Shown here piece by piece: positions 9,509-29,156 of a DNA stretch of 37,867 nucleotides. Within the stretch, counting starts at the first letter, position 1. Every line of letters starts with the position of its first letter. Origin of the DNA: Polyangiaceae bacterium (lineage in GTDB: Bacteria > Myxococcota_A > Polyangia > Polyangiales > Polyangiaceae). The DNA is taken from NCBI GenBank assembly GCA_029941785.1, contig JAPYTK010000018.1:1-37867 (forward strand), in the 5' to 3' direction. The notes below the pieces were generated by a model. That model was not told where the DNA came from. It saw nothing but the letters and a program-made list of their open reading frames with translations, and searched no databases. Made by a program: the position numbers and the translations under genes.

Positions 9509-12163
9509 ATGCTCGTTGACCACAAGACCATCATCAAGCGCCTGACGCGAATCTGCGTGGCAAGTCTCGAAAGCGCCGTCGTGCAAGCGATGAACGCGCG
9601 CCACTACGAAGTCACGGTTGAACACTTGTTGTTCAACCTGCTCGACAACGCCGACTCGGATGTCGCGTTTTTGGCGATGCATTACGATCTGGACCCTGCG
9701 GGTCTGCGAACGACCTTGCAGCGCGCACTCGAGGGGCTTCGCTCCGGAAATGCTGGGAAGCCGACCTTTTCCCCGTCGCTTATGGAATGGGCGCAAGATG
9801 CCTTCACCGTCGGATCGCTAGAGTACAACTACGGCAAAGTTCGCACCGGCGTGCTTTTCCGCCGATTGGTCGAGCAGGGAAGCAAGTACACCATGAGCGG
9901 GATCAGCGCCCAGCTCGCGGGCGTGCCCAAAGACGAACTCGCCACGAAGCTCCCGGAGATCTGTGCCGGCTCAAAGGAAGAGAGCGAGTCGGGCGCCCAG
10001 GCCGGCGCTGGCGTCGAAGGCGGCAAGCTTCCGAGCGGCAGTGCTCTCGAAGCCGATAGCGCGCTCGCGAAGTTCTGCGTGGACTTCACCGGTCGGGCGC
10101 GCTCGGGCGAGATCGATCCGATCTTCGGTCGTGAGCGCGAGATCCGGAACATGATCGATATTCTCGCCCGTCGTCGTAAGAACAACCCGATCGTTCTCGG
10201 CGAAGCGGGGGTAGGTAAGACGGCGCTCATCGAGGGCTTGGCCCTCAACATCGTCAACGACGAGGTGCCCGAGCTGCTGAAGGGGGTCGAAATCCTCGGC
10301 TTGGACCTCGGTCTGCTCCAGGCCGGAGCCAGCGTGAAGGGTGAGTTCGAGAAACGCCTGAAGATGGTCATCGAGGAGGTGAAGTCCTCGACCAAACCCA
10401 TCATCATCTTCATCGACGAGGCGCACACCTTGATCGGTGCTGGCGGTGGCGGTGGGGGCGGTGACGCCGCGCAGCTGCTCAAGCCGGCCCTCGCCCGCGG
10501 CGAGCTACGGACCATCGCGGCCACTACGTATAGCGAATACAAGAAGTACATCGAGAAGGACGCCGCGCTCGAGCGTCGTTTCCAGCCGGTGCATTGCGGC
10601 GAACCTAGCGTCGAGGTGTGCACGACGATGCTTCGTGGTCTGCGCGAGAAGTTCGAGGATGCGCACAACGTCATCATCCAGGACGAAGCCATCGAATCGG
10701 CGGTGCGCCTCGCGGCCCGTTACATCACGGGTCGACAGCTGCCGGACAAGGCAGTCGATCTGCTGGACACCTGCGGTGCGCGGGTCAAGGTGGCGCTCCA
10801 GCAAAAGCCTGCTCAGGTCGAGGATTGCGAGGTCATCATCACGAACCTCGAGCGCGAACTCTCAGCTCTCGAGCGTGATGCGGAAGCGGGCATCGAGATC
10901 GAAGAAAAGCGCAAGGACGAGATCAGGGAGGAAATCGCGGCTGCGAGCGACAATCTCGTCGCGCTGCAAGCCGATTACGAGATGGAGCTGGCGGGCGTTC
11001 GCGCGGTGATCGATGCCCGAGAGAAGATGAACGCGGCGGAATCCGAAGAGGAGAAAACCAAACTTCGCGCCGAGGTCAGGGTGGCCATCAAGAAGCTTCA
11101 CGCTTCTCAGGGCGAAGTGCCCCTCATTCGTCCCGACGTGGACGATGCGATGGTCGCGGCAGTGGTTTCCGCGTGGACCGGTATTCCGGCTGGCAAGATG
11201 GTGGCCGATGACGTGACCAACCTCATCAAGATGGAGGAGCACCTCACGACTCGCATCAAGGGTCAGGATTACGGTATCCAGGTCATTTCGAAGGAACTTC
11301 GCAGTGCTCGCGCTGGTCTCAAGGCTGAAGAGCAACCGCTCGGAGTTTTCTTGTTGGTCGGCCCGTCGGGTGTCGGTAAAACCGAGGCGGCACTCGGTAT
11401 CGCGGACCTCATGTTCGGCGGCGAACGGATGATGGTCACCATCAACATGAGCGAGTTCCAGGAAAAGCACACTGTCAGCCGTTTGATCGGTTCACCTCCG
11501 GGCTATGTGGGCTTCGGCGAGGGCGGTATGTTGACCGAGGCGGTTCGCCACCGGCCCTACACGGTCGTACTGCTCGACGAGTGCGAGAAGGCCGATCCGG
11601 ACGTGATGAACCTGTTTTACCAGGTCTTCGATAAGGGCATGCTCAGCGACGGCGAGGGACGGTTGGTCGATTTTCGCAACACCGTCGTGATCATGACGAG
11701 CAACCTGGCGACGGACAAGATCACCAACATGACGGTCGCGGCTTGGGAAGATGAGGAAGAGGTGGACATGCCGGAACTCATCGAAGCGATCAAGCCCACG
11801 CTGGTGGCGCACTTCAAACCCGCGCTCCTCGCGCGTATGACGACGGTGCCTTTCTTACCCATCTCCCCCGAAGCGATGGCGATGATCACCAGGCTCAAGC
11901 TCAACAAGTTGATGAAGCGCCTGGCGAGTTCGCAGGACATCGAGGCGACCTACACCGAAAAGGTCATCGACCTCATCGCGAGCCGCTGCACCGAGGTCGA
12001 TACCGGAGCCCGCAACATCGATCACATCTTGCGCGCTGCGCTCATCCCCATCCTATCGAGCGCCATTTTGGCCAAGATGGCCGACGGCGAGGAACTGGAG
12101 AAGCTTGAGGTGGATGTCGCGGACAACACTTTCGTGCCGATCTTTAGCAGCGCCGCTGAATAG
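9509..12163 (+). CDS. clpV: T6SS sheath-disassembly ATPase ClpV (TssH)
   Basis: ClpV (884 residues, usual length about 850-900) is a hexameric AAA+ unfoldase that extracts and recycles contracted TssB/TssC sheath. The ATG at 9509 has GGAG eight bases upstream. The N domain (about 1-150) with LESAVVQAMNARHYEVTVEHLL would bind TssC. The first AAA+ module has Walker A GEAGVGKT (231-238) and Walker B IIIFIDEAHT (about 298-305). A coiled-coil middle region follows at about 390-520. The second module has GPSGVGKT (618-625) and VVLLDECEKA. All nucleotide-binding motifs look intact. The Walker B loop carries a run of seven glycines where relatives have a more mixed sequence. Confidence 0.97.
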   Translation: MLVDHKTIIKRLTRICVASLESAVVQAMNARHYEVTVEHLLFNLLDNADSDVAFLAMHYDLDPAGLRTTLQRALEGLRSGNAGKPTFSPSLMEWAQDAFTVGSLEYNYGKVRTGVLFRRLVEQGSKYTMSGISAQLAGVPKDELATKLPEICAGSKEESESGAQAGAGVEGGKLPSGSALEADSALAKFCVDFTGRARSGEIDPIFGREREIRNMIDILARRRKNNPIVLGEAGVGKTALIEGLALNIVNDEVPELLKGVEILGLDLGLLQAGASVKGEFEKRLKMVIEEVKSSTKPIIIFIDEAHTLIGAGGGGGGGDAAQLLKPALARGELRTIAATTYSEYKKYIEKDAALERRFQPVHCGEPSVEVCTTMLRGLREKFEDAHNVIIQDEAIESAVRLAARYITGRQLPDKAVDLLDTCGARVKVALQQKPAQVEDCEVIITNLERELSALERDAEAGIEIEEKRKDEIREEIAAASDNLVALQADYEMELAGVRAVIDAREKMNAAESEEEKTKLRAEVRVAIKKLHASQGEVPLIRPDVDDAMVAAVVSAWTGIPAGKMVADDVTNLIKMEEHLTTRIKGQDYGIQVISKELRSARAGLKAEEQPLGVFLLVGPSGVGKTEAALGIADLMFGGERMMVTINMSEFQEKHTVSRLIGSPPGYVGFGEGGMLTEAVRHRPYTVVLLDECEKADPDVMNLFYQVFDKGMLSDGEGRLVDFRNTVVIMTSNLATDKITNMTVAAWEDEEEVDMPELIEAIKPTLVAHFKPALLARMTTVPFLPISPEAMAMITRLKLNKLMKRLASSQDIEATYTEKVIDLIASRCTEVDTGARNIDHILRAALIPILSSAILAKMADGEELEKLEVDVADNTFVPIFSSAAE

Positions 12164-13039: not shown

Positions 13040-13142
13040 AGGACCGGCCGACCCTCCGCCCGTATCGTCTTCCCGAAAAAACGGGAGTGTTCGATGGCAT
13101 GGAGACTTGGCCGACAACCTGCTAGAACGAGCGGGCTTGCCC

Positions 13143-14504
13143 ATGACCCATCCGCGGAAGCCGATCTGGACCGAGGGGCTCTTCATGACCCCGCAACACT
13201 TGCAGCAGGGGGATCTGTATCACGAGTCCTTACTGCGACAGCGCATGCGCGCCCTCTTGCGCTACGATTGGGGGCTCACCGACGTTCAGTTCGATGATCG
13301 CGCGCTCAGTTCAGGCCAAGTGAAGCTGCTCCATTGCGAGGGCGTTTTCGGAGATGGCACCCCCTTCATCATCGGCGAGCACGGGGAGGACCTCGTGGAG
13401 GCCCGGCCCATCGAAGCGCACTTCCCCGCTGCCATCGACAAGGTCGATGTGTTGTTGGCGATCCCGCAGGTCCGAGAGGCACACGCGAATGCGTCGATGG
13501 ATCCCGCGAAGGCTGGTCCGGCGATTCGTTACGTCGTCGAACAGACTTCGGTTCCCGACTTGAACACGGGACGAAACGAGCAATCCGTTCCTTGGGGCCG
13601 CAGCAACATGCGTCTGCTCTATGGGACCGAGCCGCTCGAGGCGTACCAAACGATTCGCATCGCACAGCTCACGCGTGACGCGTCGGGGGGCATCGTCGTC
13701 AAACCGACGTTCATCCCGTCACTGTTGCGTATCGGTGCATCGAAATTCGTGACCGGCCAGCTCAGCGGCATACTCAACGCCATGGTCGGTCGGCAGAAGG
13801 CGCTCGCCGAAACCCGTCGGCAGCGTTCGAGTTCGTCCGTTGATTTTCAGTCGTCTGACGTCGAGAAGTTTTGGCAGCTTCACACCCTCAACTCCTTCAT
13901 CCCTCGCGTATCGCACATGGTCGATCAAGCTGACGCGCATCCCGAGGAGCTGTATCTGTTGCTGGGCGGGATCATCGGCGAGTTGGCGACTTTCGTTCCT
14001 GGTGTCGATCCGAAGTCGATCCCGAAGTTCAACTACCTCGAACTCGAAGACGTGCTCGTGCCGATGTTCGAGCAGGCCAAGACCCTGGTCGGGCACCTGG
14101 GCGCCGACCAGTTCATCATCATTCCCCTCGAGAAGCGCGAGGATGGCATGTACCTCGGTCGTTTCGAGGATCCGAACATGACCCGGGACAACGAGTTTTA
14201 CCTCGAGTGTGGAGGCTCCGATGAGGCCACCTTACGTGAGCGCTTACCGAAGCTTCTCAAGGTCGCGTCGTGGACACAGGTCGGCTACATTCTCAACGCG
14301 GCGATCCCCGGTGTGACCTGCGCCGTGGAGTACCGTCCCCCCGGCGCGATTCCGGTCAAGCCAGGCCTGGTTTACTTGAAGGTCGAGCCGGACGGCGAAT
14401 ATTGGGAGGATGTCGTCAGATCTGGCACGATAGCGCTGTATCAGCCCATCGACCCACAGAAGGTGAACATTCGCCTCATCGGGGTCAAGAAGGGCAAGTC
14501 TTGA
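13143..14504 (+). CDS. tssK: T6SS baseplate-membrane adaptor TssK
   Basis: TssK (453 residues) is a trimeric cytoplasmic protein linking the baseplate to the TssJLM membrane complex. The N-terminal KPIWTEGLFMTPQHLQQGDLY is the family hallmark; the middle contains RVSHMVDQADAHPEELYLLL and the end FYLECGG and YLKVEPDGEYW, in the usual order. The ATG at 13143 is preferred because homologous proteins start just before this motif. A TTG at 13107 in the same frame would add 12 residues and cannot be excluded. A short hairpin (TCCCG-AAAAAA-CGGGA, 13071-13086) lies in the leader. tssL follows after 39 bases. Confidence 0.94.
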   Translation: MTHPRKPIWTEGLFMTPQHLQQGDLYHESLLRQRMRALLRYDWGLTDVQFDDRALSSGQVKLLHCEGVFGDGTPFIIGEHGEDLVEARPIEAHFPAAIDKVDVLLAIPQVREAHANASMDPAKAGPAIRYVVEQTSVPDLNTGRNEQSVPWGRSNMRLLYGTEPLEAYQTIRIAQLTRDASGGIVVKPTFIPSLLRIGASKFVTGQLSGILNAMVGRQKALAETRRQRSSSSVDFQSSDVEKFWQLHTLNSFIPRVSHMVDQADAHPEELYLLLGGIIGELATFVPGVDPKSIPKFNYLELEDVLVPMFEQAKTLVGHLGADQFIIIPLEKREDGMYLGRFEDPNMTRDNEFYLECGGSDEATLRERLPKLLKVASWTQVGYILNAAIPGVTCAVEYRPPGAIPVKPGLVYLKVEPDGEYWEDVVRSGTIALYQPIDPQKVNIRLIGVKKGKS

Positions 14505-14543
14505 AGAGCGCCCCTCGAGGGGCTTGCAGGCTAGGGTGAGAAG

Positions 14544-15218
14544 ATGAGTAGCGAAGCGCAATCGATGTACTGGGTGTGTTCTGACGTATTGTCGTTGGTT
14601 CTTCAGCTGCGAAACTCCCAGGACTTGCCAGCACCCGATATCTTGCAGCGTCGTGTCTTGGGCTTGTTCGACACCATGATGCAGAATGGACGCGAAGGGG
14701 GGATCCCCGAGCGGGACATGACCGATGTGAAGTATGCGCTTGCGGCCTTCGCGGACGAGGTCATATTCGTGTCGAGCTGGTCTGGCCGAACGCAGTGGCT
14801 GAACAACCCTCTGCAGCTTCAGTTCTTTCAGGAGAACACGGCGGGTGATGGTTTTTTCTCTCGACTCGACCAACTTCACGGCGAGCGCGGAAGATTGCAC
14901 GTTACGCAGATCTACTTCTTGTGCTTGGCCTTGGGCTTTCAGGGCAAGTTCCGTCTCGCCGGTCAAGAGGGTCTCGGGGCCGTCGTCGAAGGCGTAGGCA
15001 ACCACGTGGCCTTGGCCATTGGTGGCGCCGGCGTGTTGGCTCCCAATGCCGAGCGGCGTGATGGCGCAGCGGGCGCGGTGCGACGCGAGCTACCGTTCTT
15101 GGCCGTCGCCATGGGCTTCTTCGTGCTCGCGTTGTTGATCGTCATCGTGCTTAGACTCGTGATCGGCAGCCAGGCCGGCAACATCGCTGAGAGCATATCG
15201 AAGTTGGTCGCTGGCTAA
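14544..15218 (+). CDS. tssL: T6SS inner-membrane protein TssL (DotU)
   Basis: TssL (224 residues) forms the T6SS inner-membrane complex with TssM. The cytoplasmic domain (about 1-190) carries the DotU/IcmH features: VKYALAAFADEVIF and a WLNNPLQLQFFQENTAGDGFF segment, then YFLCLALGFQGKFR. One transmembrane helix lies near the C-terminus (LPFLAVAMGFFVLALLIVIV), followed by only about 20 residues. There is therefore no C-terminal OmpA-like peptidoglycan-binding domain, unlike extended TssL proteins. The ATG at 14544 is preceded by a GGGTGAGA-type site. tssM follows. Confidence 0.95.
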   Translation: MSSEAQSMYWVCSDVLSLVLQLRNSQDLPAPDILQRRVLGLFDTMMQNGREGGIPERDMTDVKYALAAFADEVIFVSSWSGRTQWLNNPLQLQFFQENTAGDGFFSRLDQLHGERGRLHVTQIYFLCLALGFQGKFRLAGQEGLGAVVEGVGNHVALAIGGAGVLAPNAERRDGAAGAVRRELPFLAVAMGFFVLALLIVIVLRLVIGSQAGNIAESISKLVAG

Positions 15219-15333
15219 GCGATTCGCCGATTGCAGTGGCCGAAAACTCGGCCCGAAGCGCGACTGTCCGCAACAATAGGTGGCATCATCCATTAGAGTC
15301 CCGCTGCGGTGGGACAAGGAGCGGCTCTTCGCC

Positions 15334-18300
15334 ATGTGGCTGTGGATCCTCGTTATCATCATTCTGTTGCTCAATTGGAGCGCTTGGCTGGTTCTCTCAC
15401 CGGAACCAGGAACGCTCGATCCGGAGCTTTATCCCTTCTGGATTGCGGTCACGGTCACTATCGTCGTGCTCGCGATCGTGGTCGGTCTGTACATTTACCG
15501 GCGGGTTCGTGCCGCTCGTGCGGCGCGTGCACTCGAGAAGGCCATCGCGCAGCAAGCCCAGGAGCAGGTCGCCAAGACGAAGCCGGAAGACACGGCTGAG
15601 GTACGCGAGCTCCATCGCAAGATGATGGAGGGCATGAAGGCCCTCAAGCAGTCGAGGCTGGCTGAGGGCAAGACGGGCGACCCACTGTACTCCCTGCCCT
15701 GGTACGCCCTGGTTGGTCCGCCTGGCTCCGGTAAGACGACGGCCCTTCGCTACTCCGGTCTCAGCTTCCCGTACCTCGATCCCGATGGGGGAGGGGTGCG
15801 CGGCGTAGGCGGCACACGTAACTGCGACTGGTGGTTTTGCAACCAAGCCATCTTGCTCGACACCGCAGGACGCTACACGAGCGAAGAGGCCGACTACGAC
15901 GAGTGGATGGCCTTCCTCGGCATGTTGAGAACCTACCGCCCGAAGAAGCCCCTCAATGGCGTCATCGTGACGGTGAGCGTGAGCGAACTGATCGACGCGA
16001 GCGAGGACGAAATCGAGCGCACCGCTGAGCGCATCCGCGAGCGGATCGACGAGATGCAAGAGCAGCTCAAGATGGTGATGCCCGTCTACGTCATGTTCAG
16101 CAAGTGCGATCTCGTCGCCGGTTTCGTCGAGTTCTTCGGGGATCTCAAGCGCAGTGAGCGCGGTCAAGCGTGGGGCGCGACCTTGCCCCTCAACATGAAC
16201 ATGGCCGATCCGGCTCAGGTTTTCGAGAACGAGTTTGATCTTCTCGTCGATCAACTCCACAAGCGGGCGATCCGGCGGGTCGGCAGCGATCGGACGAATC
16301 GTCGCGAAAAAGAGAAGATCTATCAATTTCCCCTCGAGTTTGCGGCGATCAAGCGCAATCTCGCAGATTTTCTCGGGGCAGCCTTCGCACCGATGGGAGG
16401 CGAGGGCGGCCGACAAGCCTCAGCGCCCATCCTGCGAGGGTTCTATTTCGCGAGCGGTACCCAAGAGGGTAAACCGCTCGACCGCGTCGTCGGCGCCATG
16501 GGCCGCGCCTTCGGTCTCCGAGCTGTAGAGGAAGAGGAGCCGACGAGCACCGAGAGCAAGAGCTTCTTCCTGCGCGAGATGTTCGAGAACGTGGTGTTTC
16601 CCGACCAATTGATCGCAGGGCGAACCGAAGGGGAGCTGAAGCGCATTCGGTTGCGGCGCGTCCTGGTTGCGGCCGCCGCGATGTGCATCGCGATCATCAT
16701 GGCTGGGCCAGCCGGTTGTTCTTTCTCGAACAACCGCGTGCTGCTCGCCGACGTGGAGTTGGTGTCCAAGCAGGCCGGCGACATCAAGTGGGCCGACGGG
16801 CGACCGTTGAGCCCCAAGCTCGACCAGCTCGACGAGCTGCGTGAGCGACTCCTCGTTCTCGATGGCTACAATCGAGATGGAGTACCCTGGCTGATGGGCT
16901 GGGGCATGTACCAGGGGGAAAAGGTGTTTCCGCCGCTCCTTCAACAGTACATCGCCTTGCTCCGCGGCGCTTTCATCGCGCCGGTGAAGAGTCGGCTCGA
17001 AGACGAATTGGCGGTTATCGACGGCTCCAATTACGGCGAGCAATACGACACCTTGAGAACCTACCTATTGCTGAACGACGTGATCCACGTCAATCAGGAG
17101 GATCCCGATAATCAGCCCAACACGGCATGGGAGACGGACCGCTTGACCGCGCGCTGGGCGAAGCTCTTGCGACAGCAGGGAGCGGGTTCCGAGATCGACG
17201 AAGACGATCTGCGCAAGCGCCTGAACCGTCATTCGAGCTACTATGTCGACCTCTTGGGCCGGGCCAAGGTGAAGGGCGAGCCCCTCAAGAAGCCGCTAGT
17301 GGAGGGCGCCCGCGCTCGACTCAGCCGCGTGGGTCGCAACAAGCAGTTTTATGAGCGATTCGTCGTGTCCCTGATCAAAGTGAAGCGCGACCCCTTGGGC
17401 GCCGACACGGCCGAGAACCGCAAGTATCCACCGCTAGAGCTGTCGAAGCTGTTCGTGGACCGAGCCGAGGTGCTGACGATACTGAGCAGTCGGCGGTACA
17501 AGCGCGAGAACAAATACCAGCAGGTGAGGGGTCCATTTACGAAGCGTGGCCGTGCCGCGGTGCTCGCGAAGCTGAAGAATGGCGCCAAGATCCTCGAGCG
17601 CGAAAAATGGGTCGTCCCGATCGCGAAACGCGAAAAGGACGTAAAGTTCGAAATCGAGAAGCTACTCAAGCAAGTTCGGCAGGACTACGATGGCCAGTAC
17701 ATTGCCGAGTGGACCGACTTCTTCCGAGATATTGCGGTGTCCATTCCTGCCAACAACCTCGAGGCGATCGGGGAGTTTCGTGTGCTGTCCACGCCCGAGT
17801 GGCCGTACATGCGCCTGCTCAAGGCGTTGCGAGAAAATACGCAATTCGGCGAGACCAAATCACCAACCGAAAAGGCACAATCTGATCGGGGCGTGCTCAG
17901 TCAGATCAAGCGTCGGGCGCGCTCAGGACTCGGCCGCAGGCTGAAGACCAACCTCAGCGGTCTCGGTCTCGGGGGCGGCGGGGCCGACGAATACGTCGAT
18001 CCGATACCACCTGCGTTCAAGGCCATGGTGGAATTTGGTTTCCCGGCTAGTGCAAAGAAGGATGAGCCTCCTCCTCCGGGAGCGCTCGCGACCTACATTG
18101 GCGAGCTCGAGAAGCTCGCTGGACAGATGACGATCATCGAGGAAGGACCGCCGAGCGCGGACACCGCCAAGGCGACCGATCAGTTCAAAGCGGCGGTAGC
18201 GATCGCCGAGACGAAGCTGCTGAGCTTGGATCGTCGCGGGCAAAATCTCATGCGTGACCTGCTGATGAACCCTCTGCGTCAGTCCTACAAGGCGATGGTC

Positions 18301-19056
18301 AAGAGTGCGGGCGGCGCAGCGAGTGGGTTGTGGGAAGTTGCCGTGTGGCCGACGTATCGCGACACCATCATGAACCGCTATCCCTTCAATGACGCGGCTA
18401 CGCGCGACGCTTCGTTCGAAGACGCCGTGGCCTTCTTCCAACCGAAGGAAGGGATATTGTGGGGTTTCTACGACAGCTACCTGAAGAGCTTCCATCGTCG
18501 GGTTGGCTTCACCTTCGTCCCGGCCACCCAGCTCGGTGGCGTGCCGCGACCCGCGCGTCGTTACACGCCCTTCAATCCGAACCTGTACAACTGTTTGGAG
18601 CGGGCCTCGATAATCACCGACGCGCTCTTTTCTCAGGGGAATCCTGGCGTGAAGTTCAAGGTCAACCTCACCACGGTCAGCCCGATCGTGAGCGAGATTA
18701 TCTTTGAACTCGACGGCCAACAGCGCAGTTATCGGAACGAACGGGAGTTTTGGCGTAACTTCACCTGGCCCGGCAAAGACGAGCCCTCCGCTGCGATCCG
18801 CGTCAAGGGCGCGGGTGGCTTGAACGAGGAAATTCGGCGCGACGGTCCTTGGGGCCTGTTCCGGCTCCTCGAGGCCGGACGGACGTCCTCCAAAGAGGGC
18901 GATGACAAGACCTTCGTAGCGGAATGGCAAATGGCCGCGCCGCCGGTGACCGTTCGTATGCAGATTCGACCCACCCGCGCGAATCATCCGATGTCCCCTC
19001 GTTTTTTCCGCAACATGAACTGCCCTTCGGGGATCGGCGACACCTTCGGCGGCTGA
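15334..19056 (+). CDS. tssM: T6SS inner-membrane protein TssM (IcmF)
   Basis: TssM (1240 residues) spans the envelope from the cytoplasm to TssJ. Two N-terminal transmembrane helices (about residues 1-20 and 32-52) precede a cytoplasmic GTPase-like domain with Walker A GPPGSGKTT (128-136) and the ILLDTAGRY switch. A third transmembrane helix (about 445-465) leads to a long periplasmic part ending in the IcmF C-terminal domain (GLWEVAVWPTYRDTIMNRYP and FNPNLYNCLERASIITDALF). The ATG at 15334 was chosen because AAGGAG lies 12 bases upstream. A GTG at 15280 would add 18 residues but has no ribosome binding site. The Walker A lysine is present, which is not the case in all TssM. Confidence 0.96.
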   Translation: MWLWILVIIILLLNWSAWLVLSPEPGTLDPELYPFWIAVTVTIVVLAIVVGLYIYRRVRAARAARALEKAIAQQAQEQVAKTKPEDTAEVRELHRKMMEGMKALKQSRLAEGKTGDPLYSLPWYALVGPPGSGKTTALRYSGLSFPYLDPDGGGVRGVGGTRNCDWWFCNQAILLDTAGRYTSEEADYDEWMAFLGMLRTYRPKKPLNGVIVTVSVSELIDASEDEIERTAERIRERIDEMQEQLKMVMPVYVMFSKCDLVAGFVEFFGDLKRSERGQAWGATLPLNMNMADPAQVFENEFDLLVDQLHKRAIRRVGSDRTNRREKEKIYQFPLEFAAIKRNLADFLGAAFAPMGGEGGRQASAPILRGFYFASGTQEGKPLDRVVGAMGRAFGLRAVEEEEPTSTESKSFFLREMFENVVFPDQLIAGRTEGELKRIRLRRVLVAAAAMCIAIIMAGPAGCSFSNNRVLLADVELVSKQAGDIKWADGRPLSPKLDQLDELRERLLVLDGYNRDGVPWLMGWGMYQGEKVFPPLLQQYIALLRGAFIAPVKSRLEDELAVIDGSNYGEQYDTLRTYLLLNDVIHVNQEDPDNQPNTAWETDRLTARWAKLLRQQGAGSEIDEDDLRKRLNRHSSYYVDLLGRAKVKGEPLKKPLVEGARARLSRVGRNKQFYERFVVSLIKVKRDPLGADTAENRKYPPLELSKLFVDRAEVLTILSSRRYKRENKYQQVRGPFTKRGRAAVLAKLKNGAKILEREKWVVPIAKREKDVKFEIEKLLKQVRQDYDGQYIAEWTDFFRDIAVSIPANNLEAIGEFRVLSTPEWPYMRLLKALRENTQFGETKSPTEKAQSDRGVLSQIKRRARSGLGRRLKTNLSGLGLGGGGADEYVDPIPPAFKAMVEFGFPASAKKDEPPPPGALATYIGELEKLAGQMTIIEEGPPSADTAKATDQFKAAVAIAETKLLSLDRRGQNLMRDLLMNPLRQSYKAMVKSAGGAASGLWEVAVWPTYRDTIMNRYPFNDAATRDASFEDAVAFFQPKEGILWGFYDSYLKSFHRRVGFTFVPATQLGGVPRPARRYTPFNPNLYNCLERASIITDALFSQGNPGVKFKVNLTTVSPIVSEIIFELDGQQRSYRNEREFWRNFTWPGKDEPSAAIRVKGAGGLNEEIRRDGPWGLFRLLEAGRTSSKEGDDKTFVAEWQMAAPPVTVRMQIRPTRANHPMSPRFFRNMNCPSGIGDTFGG

Positions 19057-20271: not shown

Positions 20272-21918
20272 ATGTCGGAAGAACTCATCGCCGCGTCGAT
20301 CGAACGCATCAAGGACCTGCTCGAACCTATCAATGGTGGGGTCGGCGAAGATGTCTCCTACGATGAAAAATTCGACGAGATCAAGAACGAAACCGAGAAG
20401 CTGACCTCCTTCGGAGGGGACCAACCGGACTGGAGCATTGTTGGGGTGTTGGCTGAGGAACTCCTTCAAGACAAATCGAAGGATTTTCGTATCGCTAGCT
20501 ACTTGGCGACCTGCAAGATCCGCGAACCGAAACTCGAGAGCGTGCTCGATGGTTTGCTGCTCATACAGGAGACGTCGAACCGATTCTGGGACGACATGTA
20601 TCCGCCGCTTCGTCGCCTGCGCGCACGTGCCGGCATGATCGGTTGGATGAGCGACACGGCGGGGGAAGAGGTCGCCAACATCAAGCTGAAGCCAGCCGAC
20701 AAGGCCATGTGCGACGCCATCGATAGCGCGTACAAGGCGCTCGACGCGGACATGCGCGAGAAGATGGGTGAGGCGTACCCGGGGATGTCGACGCTGCGCG
20801 AGTCCGTTCGCGGGCTCGTTTCCAACTGTCCCAAAGAGAAGCCGAAGGCCGAACCGAAGGCCGCCCCGGCACAGGCGGCTCCAGGTGGGGCGGCCCCGGC
20901 TGCCTCGGCAGGGGGCGTGAGTCTCGGAGACGTCAGCACGCCGGATGCCGCGCTCAAGAGTATCGCGACGATGGCGACACAGCTCAAGAAGATTGGCGCT
21001 GTGCTGCGCGACGCGAAGCCAGACGATCCCCTTGCGTATCGATACGGGCGAATGGGCCAATGGATGCCTGTTGCCGGACCCCCGCCCACGCCTGCCGGCG
21101 ATGGAAAGACGTTGGTGCCTCCACCCCCGCCTCATCTCAAACAGCGCTTCGAGACGCTGGTCCAAACGGGTGATTGGCTCACCTTGCTCCGAGAAGCCGA
21201 CAACATAGGGGGGGAGCAGCTCCTGTGGCTGGATCCCCAACGCTACGTCGCCACCGCGATGGCCGCCTTGGGGGTGACGGCCATCAAGGCCCGGGAGGAA
21301 TTGCTGATGCAAGTCGCATTGTTCCTCAAGCGTGTCCCGAACCTACCGAAGCTCAGTTTCTCGGACGGTACGCCGCTGGCAGACGGTCGCACCCAAATGT
21401 GGATCGACAGTGATGTCACGCCGGTGCTCGCTGGGGACGGTGGCGGCGGAGGCGGCGGCGGCGGAGGGGCCTTGCTCGCCGAGCCCATCAAGGAGGCCCG
21501 GGGGCTCGCGGTGAAGGGCGAACTCTCCAAGGCGGTCGATCTGGTGACGGCAGCGGCAAGCACCGCCCCGACTCCCGCGGATCGATTCCGTGGCCGACTC
21601 GCCGTGGCGCAGTTGTGCTTGCAGGCCGGCAAGTACGCTATCGCACGCGGCCAGCTCGAGGGTTTGGCCGAGATCATCGACCAGCATCATCTCACGAGGT
21701 GGGATCCGGCGCTGTGTGCCGAGGTGTACTCCGGGCTCTATGCCACCCACAAGGCCATGAATGACGCCCTCAAGCCCAAGGCAAACACGCCGGTGGCTCC
21801 GGGGATGCCGCCGCCGGGCCCTTCTGCCGAGGCTTTAGCCGAGCAACGGCACATTTTCGAGCAACTCTGCCAGCTCGATCCCGCAGAAGCTCTCAAGCTC
21901 GCGGGCAACAAGAAGTAG
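20272..21918 (+). CDS. tssA: T6SS assembly protein TssA
   Basis: TssA (548 residues) organises baseplate docking and tube/sheath growth. The N-terminal ImpA domain spans about residues 10-130 (SKDFRIASYLATC, then LLLIQETSNRFWDDMYPPLR). A proline/alanine/lysine linker (about 185-215) leads to a middle region. The C-terminal part (about 440-510) resembles the VasJ-type end, with FRGRLAVAQLCLQAGKYAIA and HLTRWDPALCAEVYSGLY. A run of ten glycines near residue 393 (GDGGGGGGGGGG) forms a second flexible linker. The exact TssA subclass cannot be assigned by eye. The gap to tagF is 63 bases, and the 228-base gap downstream separates it from tssB. Confidence 0.9.
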   Translation: MSEELIAASIERIKDLLEPINGGVGEDVSYDEKFDEIKNETEKLTSFGGDQPDWSIVGVLAEELLQDKSKDFRIASYLATCKIREPKLESVLDGLLLIQETSNRFWDDMYPPLRRLRARAGMIGWMSDTAGEEVANIKLKPADKAMCDAIDSAYKALDADMREKMGEAYPGMSTLRESVRGLVSNCPKEKPKAEPKAAPAQAAPGGAAPAASAGGVSLGDVSTPDAALKSIATMATQLKKIGAVLRDAKPDDPLAYRYGRMGQWMPVAGPPPTPAGDGKTLVPPPPPHLKQRFETLVQTGDWLTLLREADNIGGEQLLWLDPQRYVATAMAALGVTAIKAREELLMQVALFLKRVPNLPKLSFSDGTPLADGRTQMWIDSDVTPVLAGDGGGGGGGGGGALLAEPIKEARGLAVKGELSKAVDLVTAAASTAPTPADRFRGRLAVAQLCLQAGKYAIARGQLEGLAEIIDQHHLTRWDPALCAEVYSGLYATHKAMNDALKPKANTPVAPGMPPPGPSAEALAEQRHIFEQLCQLDPAEALKLAGNKK

Positions 21919-21960: not shown

Positions 21961-22131
21961 GCTGCGAGTCTCTTTGAGCCTGACTCTCCAACTAAAAACG
22001 CCTGCGAAAAAAGTCGCCCCCAGCAGGAAAAGGTGGTGCGATCCGAAGCACTCATGGGTATGCTGCCCGCCCTGATTGATTCTCTTCCTCTGGGGAATTG
22101 AGTGGGGCAACAACAATCGAGTCCGGGGGAT

Positions 22132-22137
22132 AAGGAG
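22132..22137 (+). promoter_or_regulatory. Ribosome binding site fixing the tssB start
   Basis: AAGGAG nine bases before the ATG at 22147. It excludes the upstream in-frame codon at 22102 as the main start. Confidence 0.65.
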
Positions 22138-22146
22138 CTATCTGGG

Positions 22147-22644
22147 ATGGCGAAGGAAGGTTCAGTCGCGCCTAAAGAACGCGTCAATATCGTATACAAG
22201 CCTGCTACGGGAGACGCGCAGGAAGAAGTTGAACTGCCGCTGAAGATGCTCATGATGGGCGACTTCACGCAAAAGCCAGATCCGCGCCCGGTCGAAGACC
22301 GCAAGCCGATCAACGTCGACAAGGACAATTTTTCGAAGGTCATGAGCGAACAAAAGCTCAGCCTCGAATTTGCCGTTCCGGATCGGCTCAGTGACGAAGA
22401 GGACGCCGAACTCAACGTGAATCTTCGGTTCCGTCGTCTTTCCGACATGGAGCCCGAAGCGATCGCTAATCAGGTTCCGGAGCTCAAGAAGTTGCTCGAT
22501 CTACGCGCAGCGCTGACGGCTCTCAAGGGGCCGTTGGGGAATGCGAAGGCCTTCCGCAACAAGATCCAAGGGGTCCTCGAAGATCCGGGTTCGCGGAACA
22601 AGATTATCAACGAGCTCGGGCTCAAGAAGGAAGAAGGGGAGTAG
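22147..22644 (+). CDS. tssB: T6SS sheath small subunit TssB (VipA)
   Basis: TssB (165 residues) forms the contractile sheath as a heterodimer with TssC. Family features are SVAPKERVNIVYKPATGDAQ, LPLKMLMMGDFTQKPDPRPV, INVDKDNFSKVM and VPELKKLLDLRAALTALKGPL, in order over the full length. The start at 22147 is set by a strong ribosome binding site. tssC begins three bases after the stop, so the two are translated together, as expected for 1:1 partners. Confidence 0.97.
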   Translation: MAKEGSVAPKERVNIVYKPATGDAQEEVELPLKMLMMGDFTQKPDPRPVEDRKPINVDKDNFSKVMSEQKLSLEFAVPDRLSDEEDAELNVNLRFRRLSDMEPEAIANQVPELKKLLDLRAALTALKGPLGNAKAFRNKIQGVLEDPGSRNKIINELGLKKEEGE

Positions 22645-22647
22645 ACG

Positions 22648-24129
22648 ATGACCCAGGAAGCACAAGGTGACGGCGCTGGCGCACAGACGCTGGAAGGCGA
22701 TTCGCTGCTCGATGAAATCCTAGCCGAAACGAAGATGAGACCCGGCGACGAGGGCTACGAAATCGCCAAGGCCGGTGTTCAGGCCTTCATTGCAGAGCTT
22801 GTTCAGCCGAAGCGTGAAGGCGAGAAGATCGACAAGGCGCTCGTCGACGCGATGATCGCAGAGATCGATCACAAGCTATCTCGTCAAATCGACGAGATCA
22901 TGCACAACGATGGCTTTCAGAAAATCGAGAGCGCTTGGCGCGGACTGAAGTTCTGCATCGATCGCGTCGATTTTCGCGAGAACATCAAGGTCGAGATGCT
23001 CAATGCGTCCAAAGAAGACCTGCTCATGGACTTCGAGGACTCACCCGAGATTCCGAAGAGTGGTTTGTACAAGACGATCTACTCGGCTGAGTACGGCACA
23101 TTCGGTGGTCGTCCCTACGGCTTGCTCGTCGGCAACTACGACTTCGGTCCGGGACCGCAGGACATCGCGCTCTTGCAGAACCTCGCGGCAGTGGCGACGA
23201 TGGCGCATGCGCCGTTCATCGCGGCGGCTGGCCCGGAGTTCTTCGGTCTGGACGACTATATCGGTCTGCCGAACATGAAGGACCTCAAGGCTGTTTTCGA
23301 GGGGCCGCAATACACCAAGTGGCAGAGCTTCCGCGAGTCGGAGGATTCTCGGTACGTCGGACTGACGATGCCTCGATTCTTGCTGCGCTTGCCGTACGGG
23401 CAGAACACCCGTCCGGTGAAGGCCTTCAACTACGAAGAAGAGGTCATCGGCGAGCACCAGAGTTACTTGTGGGGCAACTCGGCTTTCGCGCTTGCAACGC
23501 GCGTGGCTGATAGTTTCGCGAAGTATCGCTGGTGTCCGAACATCATCGGTCCTCAAGCGGGTGGCGCGTTGGAAGATCTACCGCTCCATCAGTACGAGGC
23601 CATGGGTGAAATGCAGACCAAGGTTCCGACCGAGATCATGCTCACCGAGCGTCGCGAGTACGAGCTATCCGAAGAGGGCTTCATTGGCCTCACTTTCCGC
23701 AAGGACTCGGATAACGCGTGTTTCTTCTCTGCCAACTCGTGCCAGAAGCCCAAGAGCTTCGGCAATAGCGCCGAAGGCAAGGATGCGGAGCTCAACTACC
23801 GACTCGGTACGCAATTGCCGTACCTGTTCGTGACTTGCCGCCTGGCGCACTACATCAAGGTGCTACAGCGTGAGCAAATCGGTAGCTGGAAAGAGCGCGC
23901 GGATCTCGAGCGCGAGCTCAATCAGTGGATCGGTCAGTATGTCGCCGACATGGAAGCACCGCCGAAGGGCGTCCGCTCCCGTCGTCCGCTTCGTGCTGCG
24001 AAGATCGAGGTGACGGACGTTCCTGGCAACGCCGGCTGGTACAAGGTCGACATGAAGGTTCGCCCACACTTCAAGTACATGGGTGCGTCCTTCACGCTGG
24101 GCCTCGTCGGCAAGCTCGACAAGGAATAG
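22648..24129 (+). CDS. tssC: T6SS sheath large subunit TssC (VipB)
   Basis: TssC (493 residues, normal length) builds the sheath with TssB. The N-terminal helix SLLDEILAETKM (19-30) corresponds to the segment recognised by ClpV in known systems. IMHNDGFQKIESAWRGLKF, YGLLVGNYDFGPGPQD, GGALEDLPLHQY and the closing KVRPHFKYMGASFTLGLVGK are all family signatures. GGGGAG-type bases precede the ATG at 22648. It is the last gene of the plus-strand T6SS block and is followed by a strong hairpin. Confidence 0.98.
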   Translation: MTQEAQGDGAGAQTLEGDSLLDEILAETKMRPGDEGYEIAKAGVQAFIAELVQPKREGEKIDKALVDAMIAEIDHKLSRQIDEIMHNDGFQKIESAWRGLKFCIDRVDFRENIKVEMLNASKEDLLMDFEDSPEIPKSGLYKTIYSAEYGTFGGRPYGLLVGNYDFGPGPQDIALLQNLAAVATMAHAPFIAAAGPEFFGLDDYIGLPNMKDLKAVFEGPQYTKWQSFRESEDSRYVGLTMPRFLLRLPYGQNTRPVKAFNYEEEVIGEHQSYLWGNSAFALATRVADSFAKYRWCPNIIGPQAGGALEDLPLHQYEAMGEMQTKVPTEIMLTERREYELSEEGFIGLTFRKDSDNACFFSANSCQKPKSFGNSAEGKDAELNYRLGTQLPYLFVTCRLAHYIKVLQREQIGSWKERADLERELNQWIGQYVADMEAPPKGVRSRRPLRAAKIEVTDVPGNAGWYKVDMKVRPHFKYMGASFTLGLVGKLDKE

Positions 24130-24255: not shown

Positions 24256-26940
24256 TCAACGCGAGCGCGATTCGTCGTCGCTGTGTGCCGACTCAAGTTC
24301 GAGGAAGCCTTGCTTGAGCAACCACATGGCATGGCGGACAATTTCTTGTCGCGATCGCTCGTCGCACTGGCCCTTCGCGATGACACGGACCATGCGCTCC
24401 AAGCTGAGACCTTGGTTCTTCTCGTGCATCTTGGTCGCTCCCTCCATGATCCGCCTCAACAGCTTCTCGTCCAGCAGCCGCCACTGTTGGTTGTAGTAAA
24501 GAGGCAGGCCTTGTCGTCCCTGCGCGAGGGCGAGTCCGCTGATGCTCAAGCGAAGCACTTGCTCGGCTGCGAGCATACGTGTCGGGTAGTGGCCAAAGAC
24601 CGTCGTGTAGTTCGCGTCCCGGTAGCTTGGCGTGGTGGGGGGCATGTCGGTGTTTTTAGCCTCGTCGGCAAGCTCGGCCCACAGCGCCTCGTATCGGGTG
24701 ACGACGGACGTGAAGCCGTAGTGCAGCAGAGCCCTCGCGCGAGAGGCGTCACTCATCGCCCGACGGAGTGACGGCCGATCGAGCAACTGCTGAAGTCGCG
24801 CTTGCATGGCCTGAAGATCCGTCACGACAGTTTGGGCCATCTGGAGGTGATCCCGCGCCGAATGGCTGAGGGCACCGCCGAGGTCGTCGTGGCAAGCCGC
24901 CCAGTAACTCGGAACCAGAAAGCCCGTTTCTCCGTCGACGACGCTGTCCCGATAGCCATTCCAGTCGCTGACCACCTGCGGCACGCCGCTGGCCATGGCC
25001 TCGATGGGCGTGATGCCGAAGCTCTCCTGGAGGTTGTCGGCCGGTGAGACAAACACGTCGGCTGCGCGGTACAGCTGCGGGAGCCCCTCCTGCAGGTCGT
25101 CGATGACCCTCAGTGCCGGACCGAGCCCGAGCTGCGAGGCATAGTCCTGCAGGTGATCACCGAAGCGTTCTCCCGCGCGCTGCCGGCCGGCACAGACCAA
25201 CATCACATCCGCCTTAGGGTTGGCCACCCGGAGTCGGGACAGCACTTGGAGCAGCGGCAGCAGGTCGGCCTTGTCGATCGCGCTTAGCCGTCCCACCCAC
25301 AGCAGAATGAAGGCGTCGGCCGGGAGCTGGAAGGCTTGGCGCGCCCCGAGAGGATCTCCTGGCTTGAAGCGCTCGGTATCGACCGGTAGCGGGATGAGGT
25401 CGAAGCGTCCGGCGTATGTCAGCTGTGTTCCGTAACTGGTGTTGAAACATTCGGCCGTGTGGTTCAGTACACGGCGGCAGGCTTCCCGAGCGGCGGACGA
25501 TGTGCAAACGATGGAATCGTACGAGCGCGGCTGACTCAAGAGCAGCGGTAGGAAGTTGTCGTGGAGCAGTTCGCGGTAGCTCAGGGTGTGGTGCCCGATC
25601 GATATGGGATGCTTGGCGCCCAAGCTACTTCGAAGAGCGAAGGGTTCGTGCGTCAAGAACTGCGGCTCATGCCACGCGGCGAAGGCCGGCCGAGCCTGAA
25701 GAGCGTCGTGGTTCCAGACGCCCACGCGGGGGTTTTCGGCATATCGTTCGTTCAGCCGGGCCGTGTCTTCTTCGGGGGCGAACAAGGCATAAGACTGTTT
25801 TCCGCGGCTTGCGAATGCGAACAAGAGTTGGTCGACCGCGACCGTGCGGCCAACGATGACGCTGTCTGAGCCGGCGCATTGGTGGAACATCCCAATGCTG
25901 TTTTCCGGAGGAAGCGGCTGGGAGGTTGCGGAACGGGTCTTCTGGGGAAAGGCACGGATGCGGTCCGCGAGGCACGATGCGAGGCTGTCGAGCCCGAACG
26001 CTGCGAGAACGTCCTTCCCCGCGTTGGCACGGGGGTCGTGGTCGCGGATGTCGACGCAGCGAGTCATTGTTGCGAGCAAGTCATCCTCGTCGATCGCCGC
26101 CCAGCTCATGTCCTTGGACCACAGAGCGGGTGCGAAGGCGATCTCCTCGTCATTGAGAGGCCGTAGGGTGTAGTTCACGAGGTGCGCTCGGTCAGGCGTC
26201 ATGTAGTCGAGGTTGCCGGAGTAGGCCGTAGCGATCACCGGTGTCCCTGCCCCCATCGCTTCGGACATGCCAAGACCCCATGCTTCCGCACAATGACTCG
26301 AGACATAGGCGTCGGCCAGCGTGTGCAGAGCATCGATATCTTGCTCGTGGAGCGGTTCGCAGATGCTGATGATGTCGGGGTGCTCGCCCAAGCGGGGATC
26401 GGTTCGTGCGTATTGCTTGATGATGAGTCGAACGTCGTGCGATTTTCGGAGGCGATCGAAAACGCGCAGGGTCGCCGCGAGATTCTTTCGAGGGTTGGCC
26501 GCGTCCGCGATCGTGAAAAAGTAAAAGACGTCCTCCTGCCAATCGATCCGCTTGCGCATGCGTTCGAGCGCCTCTGCGTCGGGGATCGGTTCTCGAACGA
26601 GATGGGGAACTCGAAAGACGCGGGGATGGACGGCGGAGAACAAGGCCTCGGTGAACGATGAGGCGGTCCAAATTTCATCGATCCCGTCGAGCGAGTTCAC
26701 GTAAGAGGGGGGCAGCTGGGTTGTTTCCCACACCGCGTATGCCACGACGTGCCGCTGACGAAGCACGGGATGGGCTTTCATGTAGTCAGGGTAATTGGGC
26801 GGCTCGTCGTGGAGCACCACCACGTCGGCCTGCTCCGGGTCGTCAACGAACCGCACCCCGAGTCTCGCGAGCGCGGCGCGATTGCCCAATGCGGCTTTAG
26901 CGTGGCTGACGTACTCGCTCGACAGATAGGCGATCTTCAA
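24256..26940 (-). CDS. Tandem family 4 glycosyltransferase with C-terminal extension
   Basis: An 894-residue protein with two complete GT-B type retaining glycosyltransferase modules (GT4-like), which transfer sugar from a nucleotide donor. Module 1 spans about 1-335, with the EX7E pair E219/E227 in EAWGLGMSEAMGAGTPVIAT. Module 2 spans about 348-725, with E639/E647 in ESFGITPIEAMASGVP and a GRL...K donor segment at 550-557. A helical C-terminal region (about 740-880, ending MWLLKQGFLEL) is not a glycosyltransferase and may be a small helical or winged-helix domain. No signal peptide or membrane helix is seen, so it is cytoplasmic. It starts 41 bases after the fused sheath-like gene and is probably co-transcribed with it. 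Acceptor unknown. Confidence 0.88.
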   Translation of the reverse strand: MKIAYLSSEYVSHAKAALGNRAALARLGVRFVDDPEQADVVVLHDEPPNYPDYMKAHPVLRQRHVVAYAVWETTQLPPSYVNSLDGIDEIWTASSFTEALFSAVHPRVFRVPHLVREPIPDAEALERMRKRIDWQEDVFYFFTIADAANPRKNLAATLRVFDRLRKSHDVRLIIKQYARTDPRLGEHPDIISICEPLHEQDIDALHTLADAYVSSHCAEAWGLGMSEAMGAGTPVIATAYSGNLDYMTPDRAHLVNYTLRPLNDEEIAFAPALWSKDMSWAAIDEDDLLATMTRCVDIRDHDPRANAGKDVLAAFGLDSLASCLADRIRAFPQKTRSATSQPLPPENSIGMFHQCAGSDSVIVGRTVAVDQLLFAFASRGKQSYALFAPEEDTARLNERYAENPRVGVWNHDALQARPAFAAWHEPQFLTHEPFALRSSLGAKHPISIGHHTLSYRELLHDNFLPLLLSQPRSYDSIVCTSSAAREACRRVLNHTAECFNTSYGTQLTYAGRFDLIPLPVDTERFKPGDPLGARQAFQLPADAFILLWVGRLSAIDKADLLPLLQVLSRLRVANPKADVMLVCAGRQRAGERFGDHLQDYASQLGLGPALRVIDDLQEGLPQLYRAADVFVSPADNLQESFGITPIEAMASGVPQVVSDWNGYRDSVVDGETGFLVPSYWAACHDDLGGALSHSARDHLQMAQTVVTDLQAMQARLQQLLDRPSLRRAMSDASRARALLHYGFTSVVTRYEALWAELADEAKNTDMPPTTPSYRDANYTTVFGHYPTRMLAAEQVLRLSISGLALAQGRQGLPLYYNQQWRLLDEKLLRRIMEGATKMHEKNQGLSLERMVRVIAKGQCDERSRQEIVRHAMWLLKQGFLELESAHSDDESRSR

Positions 26941-26981: not shown

Positions 26982-29156
26982 CTACCGAAGCGGTACGCCG
27001 AGCGTGATCTCCTCCATGGATACTCCGAGAAAGCCGCGTGGTCGCACCGTGACCGCGGCGCTCAGTCCGCTGTCGCCGCTCGACACGTCCGTCACGAGTT
27101 CGACGCTGCCGGGCCGCGCGGAGTCAAACAACTCCCACAGGGCGGCTTCGATCACCGGCTGGACCTCGGCCGGAGCGCTGCTGGCCCCAATCCTGGCCCC
27201 GAGCGCTTGTAGGAATCCCACGAGACGCGCCACGAAGAGTTGATCGACGAGTGGTGTCACGGGGAAGCGGACCTCCGTCTCGGCTCCGGCGGTGTCGTAG
27301 GTCCTCTTGGGTGGAGGCACGTAGGCCGTAGCGGCCGTCATCAAGAAGGCCGCGTCGTTGTTGGGCTGGCTTGCCAAGGCCATGATGCCGATGCGACCGA
27401 GGGCACGTTGGGTGTCCACAGAAAAGAAGGCCTCGGTGGGAATGGCGACCTTTTCGCTCTCGTATCCGCTCGAGACTTCGCGGACGGGCAGGTCTTCGAT
27501 GACCCCTCCTTCGGGGGCCCCGGTGATTCGGTGCGGCCACTGGTGCCGAGCGAAGCTCACCATCGGGAGTGTGCCCACGGCCCAACAGCTGTTGAGCCAT
27601 ACGGTGGCCTCTTGGCCGCCAGGCGCCTCTTCGATCGTGGCCTCACGCACCCGCGACGTACGGCTGTCATAGGCTTCGCGCGCGAGGACGCGGTTCATGG
27701 TGAGACTCAGCCAGCGGCTCGCGGGGCGGTGCGCCTCTTTGCGCCAGGGGGCTCGTTCGGGAGCCTCGAAAATGGCCCCTTTGTAATCGAGTCGCTCAAT
27801 CCTGCTGAGATCATCCTTGCCGAGTAGCGACGCGTCAGCGGCTGCGATGATCGGCACGGCGTTGTTTTCTCCCACCTCGGCCAGCTCGCGCATGCGCGCA
27901 AAGCCGGTAGCATCGCCGGTGATTTCGGTGTCCACAACCGCGTAGCTCACTGGGGCCTCGAGGCCCACCCCGGCGTTCAGTGCGCGTTGTAGCGCAGCGG
28001 GCATGTCATCCTGAGGGGCGCTCACGACGTCGATCTGCACGCCGGCTTTCGGGCGGCGGCCCACCAGGAATGCGAGTCCGCGCCACGCTTTCTCGAGTCG
28101 TCGGAACTCGTCGTGTTGGACGACCGCGCCGAGCTGAAGGCTGACGGCCTTCTCGACCGCGCGGATGGCTTCGTCTGGTCGCGCGCCGGGGCGGTCGGCC
28201 TTGCCGCTGTGGGCGACCGCGGCCAGGAAACCATCGAAGCGACCCTTGCTCGCGCCGCTGCTCGTCGGCACAGGCCGCGCAGGAGGGGCGACGTTGGTCG
28301 CGACGCTAGGGGGATCGGAGCTTGTACCGGTATCGACCATGTCGAGAAGTCGCGACACGTCGTTGTCGGTCGTCGCCGGCAGAGGGGTCGCTGGCGCAGC
28401 CTGGACGCTGCCTCGGGGCGCGACGGTCTCGACACCGCCAAGGACCTCAGAGACGAATGGAGAACCGTTCCATAGGCGGTTGAGTTCCGATTGGGTTTGC
28501 TCAACCGTGATCGAGCCTTCGCGCAGTTGTTCCAGGACGCGTTTGCCGTCGAGCAGGGACCGGAGCAAGGGGATCTCGTTGCAGAGAGAATCGGGGCGGA
28601 AGCTCTTGAGACTCGTCAATTCGAGATCCACCCGCTGTTTGGCGCCGAGCACGGTTTCGATCTCCAAGGCGAGGCGGGGGGCGATCGCGGAAAAGACACT
28701 GTCGAGATCGCGTCCTTCGACTTTGACCGGTCGTTCTGGTGCCCGAGCGCCCCGGTTGTATGCGTCGGCGGGGACGAGATCGGCTACGGCCAAGACGCGC
28801 AAGGGTAGCAGGGGTTGCGCTTCGGTGACGGCGGAGTGACTCGGCGTCGGGCCCGTAGCAGCTGGGCTGGAGGCGGGGGCGGTGCCGGCCGGAGCTTGGC
28901 CCTGAGTGACCGTTTGAGGTTGGGAGCCCATGCCAAAGGAAATACCGCCAAGCATGACGCCGCCCTCCTCGCCGGCGGTGTCGCTGGGTCCGGACTCTGC
29001 CGCTGGGCCCTCGGGCGGCTCCTCCTTTGCCGGCGGCTGAGCCTCGTCCGTCTCGTCACTGCCGGTGACGGTTTGAGGTTGTGATCCCATACCGAAGGAG
29101 ATGCCACCCAGGATGACGCCCCCCTCGTTTTCTTTGTCGTTGTTGTCGGTGCTCAC
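26982..29156 (-). CDS. TssB-TssC-like fused sheath protein
   Basis: A 724-residue protein from the GTG at 29156 (a TTG at 29192 would add 12). Residues 12-31 and 65-84 hold two copies of a GGISFGMGSQPQTVT-type motif. Residues about 115-240 match TssB (PLRVLAVADLVP, then RDLDSVFSAIAPRLALEIE, NEIPLLRSLLDGKRVLEQL). After a proline/alanine linker, residues about 303-724 match TssC: HDEFRRLEKAWRGLAFLVGR, GGVIEDLPVREV, IPTEAFFSV and TVRPRGFLGVSMEEITLGV. It is strongly diverged from the adjacent canonical TssB and TssC, and it lacks parts of the C-terminal TssC region. It could form or cap an alternative sheath. The glycosyltransferase gene follows on the same transcript. No clear ribosome binding site is seen. 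Confidence 0.82.
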   Translation of the reverse strand: MSTDNNDKENEGGVILGGISFGMGSQPQTVTGSDETDEAQPPAKEEPPEGPAAESGPSDTAGEEGGVMLGGISFGMGSQPQTVTQGQAPAGTAPASSPAATGPTPSHSAVTEAQPLLPLRVLAVADLVPADAYNRGARAPERPVKVEGRDLDSVFSAIAPRLALEIETVLGAKQRVDLELTSLKSFRPDSLCNEIPLLRSLLDGKRVLEQLREGSITVEQTQSELNRLWNGSPFVSEVLGGVETVAPRGSVQAAPATPLPATTDNDVSRLLDMVDTGTSSDPPSVATNVAPPARPVPTSSGASKGRFDGFLAAVAHSGKADRPGARPDEAIRAVEKAVSLQLGAVVQHDEFRRLEKAWRGLAFLVGRRPKAGVQIDVVSAPQDDMPAALQRALNAGVGLEAPVSYAVVDTEITGDATGFARMRELAEVGENNAVPIIAAADASLLGKDDLSRIERLDYKGAIFEAPERAPWRKEAHRPASRWLSLTMNRVLAREAYDSRTSRVREATIEEAPGGQEATVWLNSCWAVGTLPMVSFARHQWPHRITGAPEGGVIEDLPVREVSSGYESEKVAIPTEAFFSVDTQRALGRIGIMALASQPNNDAAFLMTAATAYVPPPKRTYDTAGAETEVRFPVTPLVDQLFVARLVGFLQALGARIGASSAPAEVQPVIEAALWELFDSARPGSVELVTDVSSGDSGLSAAVTVRPRGFLGVSMEEITLGVPLR
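28905..28964 (-). repeat. Second copy of duplicated N-terminal peptide motif
   Basis: Encodes GGVMLGGISFGMGSQPQTVT (residues 65-84 of the fused sheath protein). It differs from the first copy at 12 of 60 bases, of which 11 are silent and one changes Ile to Met. Confidence 0.9.
29064..29123 (-). repeat. First copy of duplicated N-terminal peptide motif
   Basis: Encodes GGVILGGISFGMGSQPQTVT (residues 12-31 of the fused sheath protein). It is separated from the second copy by 33 residues rich in glutamate and proline that show no similarity to each other, so the motif rather than the whole segment is repeated. Confidence 0.9.

Follow-up and report, generated by a model that had tools for sequence, protein, structure and literature searches.

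The sheath of the type VI secretion system (T6SS) is usually pictured as a uniform polymer of one pair of proteins, TssB and TssC (VipA and VipB). Several eCIS have more than one sheath paralogue, one of which is located at the baseplate. Within the T6SS, Agrobacterium keeps two non-redundant TssC proteins, TssC40 and TssC41, and pairing with TssB and its stabilisation have been demonstrated for only one of them (PMC3702570); according to a review, it is unclear what an extra tssC does (PMC5813230). The V. cholerae sheath needs residue D333 of VipB to contract, its contracted state is thought to be stabilised by K223, and a VipA N-linker longer by two residues abolishes contraction while assembly continues (PMC5797969). 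The N-terminal helix of TssC, for its part, binds ClpV (PMC5048182).

The window analysed here, a stretch of 37,867 nucleotides from a Polyangiaceae bacterium, contains canonical tssB (22102..22644, forward strand; PF05591, E 5e-56; TIGR03358 above cut-off) and canonical tssC (22648..24129, forward strand; PF05943 and PF18945; TIGR03355, 712 bits). Around them lies a T6SS cluster comprising tssE, F, G, H/clpV, J, K, L, M, A, fha and tagF: tssG (933..2054), tssF (2018..3787), the gp25-like baseplate gene tssE (3817..4236) and the gene for the T6SS Fha protein (6152..7444) are on the reverse strand, and tssH/clpV (9383..12163; TIGR03345), tssK, tssL and tssM (13107..19056) and tssA (20272..21918) on the forward strand. 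Elsewhere in the same genome there are a further tssC (contig C199), a shorter VipB match (C238) and hcp (C160). The cluster also includes a gene for an uncharacterised 312-aa protein with a possible lipobox and no Pfam match (4326..5264, forward strand), homologues of which (29-33% identity) adjoin relatives of the fusion described below, together with tssE or fha, in three other loci (L042, L044, L046); it is possibly another unrecognised accessory of the myxobacterial T6SS.

On the strand opposite to canonical tssB and tssC (22102-24129), and separated from them by 2.9 kb, close to the 3 kb first estimated, is a fused TssB-TssC-like gene of 724 codons (26982..29156, reverse strand), recognised as an ORF, by Pfam and through its homologues. 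The ORF rule gives a frame of 26982-29192 free of internal stops, with a GTG at 29156 as the likeliest start. Between tssC and the fusion, on the reverse strand, a glycosyltransferase family 4 protein of 894 aa with two GT4 regions is encoded (24256..26940), its gene starting 41 bp downstream of the fusion; since a homologue, and a shorter one, follows the fusion in just one other locus (L033), this gene probably lies outside the fusion's function, and it was dropped as a candidate partner.

That a single frame joins a TssB-like to a TssC-like domain, as the initial annotation had proposed, is borne out by both halves scoring above the Pfam cut-offs: PF05591 (T6SS_VipA) matches residues 117-229 with E 4e-13 and 49.8 bits (cut-off 24), and PF05943 (VipB) matches residues 328-610 with E 2.5e-46 and 158.5 bits (cut-off 27). 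Taking these matches together with matches to PDB profiles and a structural model, we place the TssB/VipA-like domain at residues 109-245 (28422..28832, reverse strand) and the TssC/VipB-like domain at residues 303-724 (26985..28250, reverse strand), so that the limits first proposed, 115-240 and 303-724, were right to within a few residues. The intervening linker, described at the outset as proline-rich, is indeed rich in proline and alanine, and is predicted by AlphaFold to be disordered apart from a short helix at residues 266-272. The protein is also strongly diverged, as had been claimed, because the NCBIfam equivalogs for TssB (TIGR03358, 46.2 bits) and TssC (TIGR03355, 148 bits) match it below their cut-offs of 97.25 and 271.5. 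Profile searches of PDB sequences matched both TssC and TssB chains of T6SS sheaths, and found no phage or eCIS sheath at E < 1.

An AlphaFold model built from a 26-sequence alignment (338 residues at pLDDT >= 90; pTM 0.73) contains a TssB fold at about residues 117-240 and a TssC fold from residue 306, the C-terminal end of which is formed by two helices and three strands. PF18945 does not match the window fusion, yet these elements are modelled at residues 636-722, and the TssC-like half thus appears to retain the C-terminal gpW/gp25-like part; the two halves are predicted to pack as they do in one sheath protomer. For the model, Foldseek places TssC chains of T6SS sheaths from the PDB first, and a TssB chain (5urw_1A) follows at rank 14 (probability 1.00, E 2e-3). 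In VIA-align the model reaches Z 33.8 against V. cholerae VipB (5mxn) and, over model residues 114-713, Z 20-24 against the single-chain sheaths of phages, pyocin and eCIS; because all sheaths score alike, such fold searches cannot tell at which end of a sheath a paralogue belongs. Profiles and model agree in finding both halves sheath-like, which removes the earlier concern that only the C-terminal half might be.

A contig scan of genomes matched nothing when a single protein was the query and found relatives when an alignment was used; at the sensitivity of the alignment scan, no relative of the fusion was found in viral contigs. Among named genomes the fusion is present in Polyangium, Sorangium, Minicystis, Byssovorax and other Polyangiaceae. 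Some 25 Polyangiaceae genomes, finished ones included, carry syntenic homologues, and the presence of the same intact fusion in many independent genomes eliminates a frame error or an assembly artefact, the other doubt raised at the outset. Recurrence of the fusion beside tssBC, named at the outset as support for the reading, is likewise seen: a full-length homologue is found in 13 of 58 sampled relatives, and all 13 also have canonical TssC. The fusion is present in every genome in which TssC shares 75% identity or more with that of the window (11/11, the window's own included), while none was found in five relatives with a TssC 70-72% identical (G004, G006, G022, G027, G041), and for this reason we regard it as accessory. 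One MAG (G055, 93% complete) has a fusion, and canonical TssC was not found in it. In Sorangium, Minicystis and a further genome (G021) an intact fusion lies some 99-375 kb from tssC and still adjoins murI, as well as hom in Sorangium and G021. Between Polyangium species the fusion is 93-97% identical, as against 99-100% for TssC, and its dN/dS is 0.09-0.23 in Polyangium and 0.32-0.47 in Sorangium, compared with 0-0.08 for TssC; the fusion is under purifying selection, weaker than that on TssC, and its frame is intact in all sampled genomes.

Beyond the Polyangiaceae, single-frame diverged fusions are found in Nitrospirota, Roseithermus (Rhodothermota), a Phycisphaerae MAG, Rhodovarius, Parasulfuritortus and Plasticicumulans; among the Proteobacteria, the alpha, beta and gamma classes are all represented. 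These genomes have canonical TssC as well, the second TssC of one Nitrospirota genome (L072) being a fragment at a contig end only. In an unrooted tree of concatenated TssB and TssC domains (49 rows), all 26 diverged fusions fall on one side of a branch with bootstrap/SH-aLRT support of 98/99. The diverged fusions form a single lineage across five phyla, added to canonical tssBC; that they arose once is the simplest reading of this tree, though not proof, the tree being unrooted. A tree of TssC alone gives weaker agreement (SH-aLRT 88) and carries warnings about long branches; in it the tandem tssC-tssC' paralogues found in Proteobacteria, Rhizobiales among them, fall with unfused TssC. On the two trees together a plain duplicate of TssC was rejected.

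Other one-frame and diverged sheath genes were also encountered. Two planctomycete T6SS loci have near-canonical TssB and TssC in one frame (L077, 2834-4783; L090, 9821-11803), and because these fusions nest apart, inside canonical TssBC in the concatenated tree, they represent independent events. PF18945 is retained in the L077 protein, and the L090 protein, being the only TssC found in its genome, may be a natural single-chain T6SS sheath. Three Polyangia genomes without the fusion have separate but strongly diverged tssB/tssC pairs (L048, L049, L050), which make up a branch of their own within the canonical sheaths, as seen for L048 and L049 in the concatenated tree and for all three in the TssC tree.

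Two classes of diverged fusion can be distinguished: class I, which includes the window and other Polyangia, Nitrospirota, Rhodothermota, Phycisphaerae and Rhodovarius; and class II, comprising Parasulfuritortus, Plasticicumulans, Eleftheria, Rhodobacterales and one myxobacterium, and having no recognisable C-terminal gpW/gp25-like domain after the VipB core. Proteobacterial relatives in this lineage are 500-1205 aa long. Plasmids of Leisingera, Ruegeria and Qingshengfaniella carry a member of 1063-1205 aa immediately or almost immediately upstream of vgrG; the member in Eleftheria, of 592 aa, follows tssK. The suspicion that similar fusions might already be annotated as TssC was well founded for these alpha- and betaproteobacterial plasmid relatives, since those of Leisingera, Ruegeria, Qingshengfaniella and Eleftheria have been annotated, next to normal tssB and tssC, as a second "type VI secretion system contractile sheath large subunit", a misleading label; the Parasulfuritortus member had no annotation in this analysis. 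Two Rhodobacterales members (L111, 18174-21791; L112, 18513-21704) end in long acidic tails that are probably disordered. In these two, 10 and 17 LDDLL-like motifs were counted where shuffled sequence would give 0.65 and 1.75; a third member (L113) is similar in size and place.

Since a diverged fusion is kept beside tssBC, recurs and is under purifying selection, the specialised role initially suggested for it is a sensible reading. We propose, with a probability of about 0.45, that alongside canonical TssB and TssC the fusion provides a sheath-derived ring or adaptor that sits at one sheath end and does not contract. The single-chain protomer, derived from TssB and TssC, would work with the canonical sheath and not instead of it, joining the tail to serve there as a specialised ring or adaptor; because its halves are predicted to pack as in a sheath protomer, it would present a face resembling the sheath to the first canonical ring, and it would not pass contraction on. 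The block to contraction would come, in the window clade, from lost charges and the lost fixed linker of TssB and, in class II, from the missing C-terminal domain as a whole. The baseplate side of the sheath seems somewhat likelier than the other: the neighbours of diverged fusions include tssE (L042, L044), tssK (Eleftheria), vgrG (Rhodobacterales) and, for class I, Fha genes (L045, L046, L072, L075), and these point weakly to the baseplate or spike. Against a baseplate role, the fusions of the window clade adjoin tssC and the housekeeping genes hom and murI, and not baseplate genes. Still more tentatively, we suggest that such fused, non-contractile TssB-TssC paralogues, of one ancient origin, are an unrecognised accessory of many T6SSs, spread over five phyla or more, and serve at one sheath end as a dedicated ring or adaptor that is the counterpart of the specialised eCIS sheath paralogues and has stayed hidden under the name TssC.

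Residues and a linker length tied to contraction in the canonical sheath differ in the window fusion. At the positions of VipB K223 and D333 the window fusion has P470 and V580; the D333 column is acidic in 47 of 50 unfused TssC and in none of the 24 fusions of the window clade, which have T or V there. Two caveats apply: in these fusions the next position is acidic, which could compensate, and diverged fusions outside the clade are mostly acidic at the D333 position itself. The linker from the N-terminal strand of TssB to its core has one and the same length, 12 residues, in all 15 canonical TssB; in fusions it has, by a comparable measure, 13-46 residues, with about 45 in the window. Together with the loss of the C-terminal domain from class II, these features speak against the fusion acting as an ordinary contracting subunit.

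The N-terminus of the window fusion holds a nearly exact duplicate of a motif, GGVxLGGISFGMGSQPQTVT, that is single in relatives. Copy 1, GGVILGGISFGMGSQPQTVT, is at residues 12-31 (29064..29123, reverse strand) and is predicted to be disordered; copy 2, at residues 65-84 (28905..28964, reverse strand), aligns with the single copy of relatives and may be the counterpart of the donated N-terminal strand of TssB. A similar stretch, GGSVGFDASLG, occurs in another diverged fusion (L045, 8458-10245) at the C-terminus and not the N-terminus, as if the donated strand had swapped ends.

The linker between the two halves bears on the main rival, under which the fusion forms no fixed ring and is a regulator or recycling adaptor, its linker motif docking ClpV or another partner, so that it tunes sheath disassembly, or limits growth by capping or by sequestering subunits. 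We consider this unlikely, though it has evidence of its own. In the window the linker helix carries the motif SRLLDMVDTG (residues ~266-277; 28326..28361, reverse strand), supported by the model and by its recurrence in relatives from Nitrospirota, Rhodothermota, Phycisphaerae and Rhodovarius. Most class I fusions have the pattern [LIF][LIF]x[ML][VLI][DE], which is degenerate or absent in six diverged myxobacterial members (L017, L042-L046). The LLxMVD core is kept in five phyla, in a linker that varies elsewhere; for the five sequences outside Myxococcota the chance of such a match is 0.001-0.02 per linker, each lineage being independent. For class I and class II alike, an isolated helix is predicted in the linker, at the place where TssC has its ClpV-binding N-terminal helix (PMC5048182), and the LDDLL repeats of the Rhodobacterales tails, 10-17 where 0.65-1.75 are expected, count on the same side. 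However, the motif is not the same in the two classes, and when linker and cognate TssC helix were compared by BLOSUM scores with shuffled linkers as controls, their likeness was not significant; because of this negative result, ClpV docking by the linker is a lead only.

A polymerising single-chain protein that co-assembles with TssBC, or sometimes replaces it, along the whole tube would make a second or mixed sheath, one of the roles raised at the outset and the one now disfavoured. The full single-chain sheath fold speaks for it, as do the C-terminal strands kept by class I, with which polymerisation could in principle occur, and the near-canonical planctomycete fusions show that a fused subunit can exist, that of L090 being the only TssC found in its genome. 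However, no second baseplate or tube set travels with the fusion, the window clade has lost D333 and K223, the length of its TssB linker is unconstrained, and the sister class has no C-terminal domain; for these reasons we favour the non-contractile terminal or adaptor role and judge a second sheath improbable. It is very improbable that the fusion is a paralogue of the TssC40 type, an ordinary duplicated TssC fused by chance to TssB: Agrobacterium does maintain two non-redundant TssC (PMC3702570), but the tandem tssC' paralogues sit with unfused TssC in the tree, apart from the diverged fusions. Least probable of all is a decaying tssBC duplicate without current function, since the fusion, although evolving faster than TssC, has dN/dS below 0.5 and intact frames, occurs in 11/11 genomes of this T6SS lineage and is retained after separation from the T6SS locus. 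The Tvp accessory complexes were set aside as a match; the passages that describe them present them as spike accessories and mention no sheath fold (PMC13373197).

The diverged fusion family is well supported, and its function we infer; it is apparently old, widespread and undescribed, no account of a fused TssB-TssC paralogue having been found in the open-access literature searched. If the sheath-end reading is right, the tails of some T6SSs include a specialised part derived from the sheath, which is relevant to the docking of the first ring on the baseplate, to what stops sheath growth and to what restrains contraction. With at least some relatives labelled as a second large subunit, errors can arise when genes are counted or when T6SSs are typed by their TssC.

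Compared with canonical TssB/TssC, the fusion has both domains, the protomer fold and an association with a complete T6SS locus, and differs in being one chain, of a separate lineage, added to tssBC and not replacing it, with neither the contraction-linked residues nor the 12-residue TssB linker kept in the window protein. TssC40/TssC41 of Agrobacterium and the tandem tssC-tssC' pairs likewise provide a second, non-redundant TssC-like protein of the T6SS (PMC3702570), but are unfused and placed among ordinary TssC. The planctomycete proteins L077 and L090 also have TssB and TssC in one frame, but are independent and near-canonical. The proteins of Leisingera, Ruegeria, Qingshengfaniella, Eleftheria and Parasulfuritortus belong to the same diverged fused lineage (98/99) and accompany canonical tssB and tssC; they differ from the window fusion in being class II, without the C-terminal gpW/gp25-like domain, and, in Rhodobacterales, in their LDDLL-repeat tails. 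The sheaths of pyocin R2, AFP, PVC, the Streptomyces CIS and phages have, like the fusion, a one-chain sheath fold (Z 20-24), but phage, R-pyocin and eCIS sheaths are only about 8-12% identical to it, and its kinship by profile is with TssB and TssC of the T6SS: the fusion is sheath-derived and T6SS-linked, yet it is neither an ordinary TssB nor an ordinary TssC.
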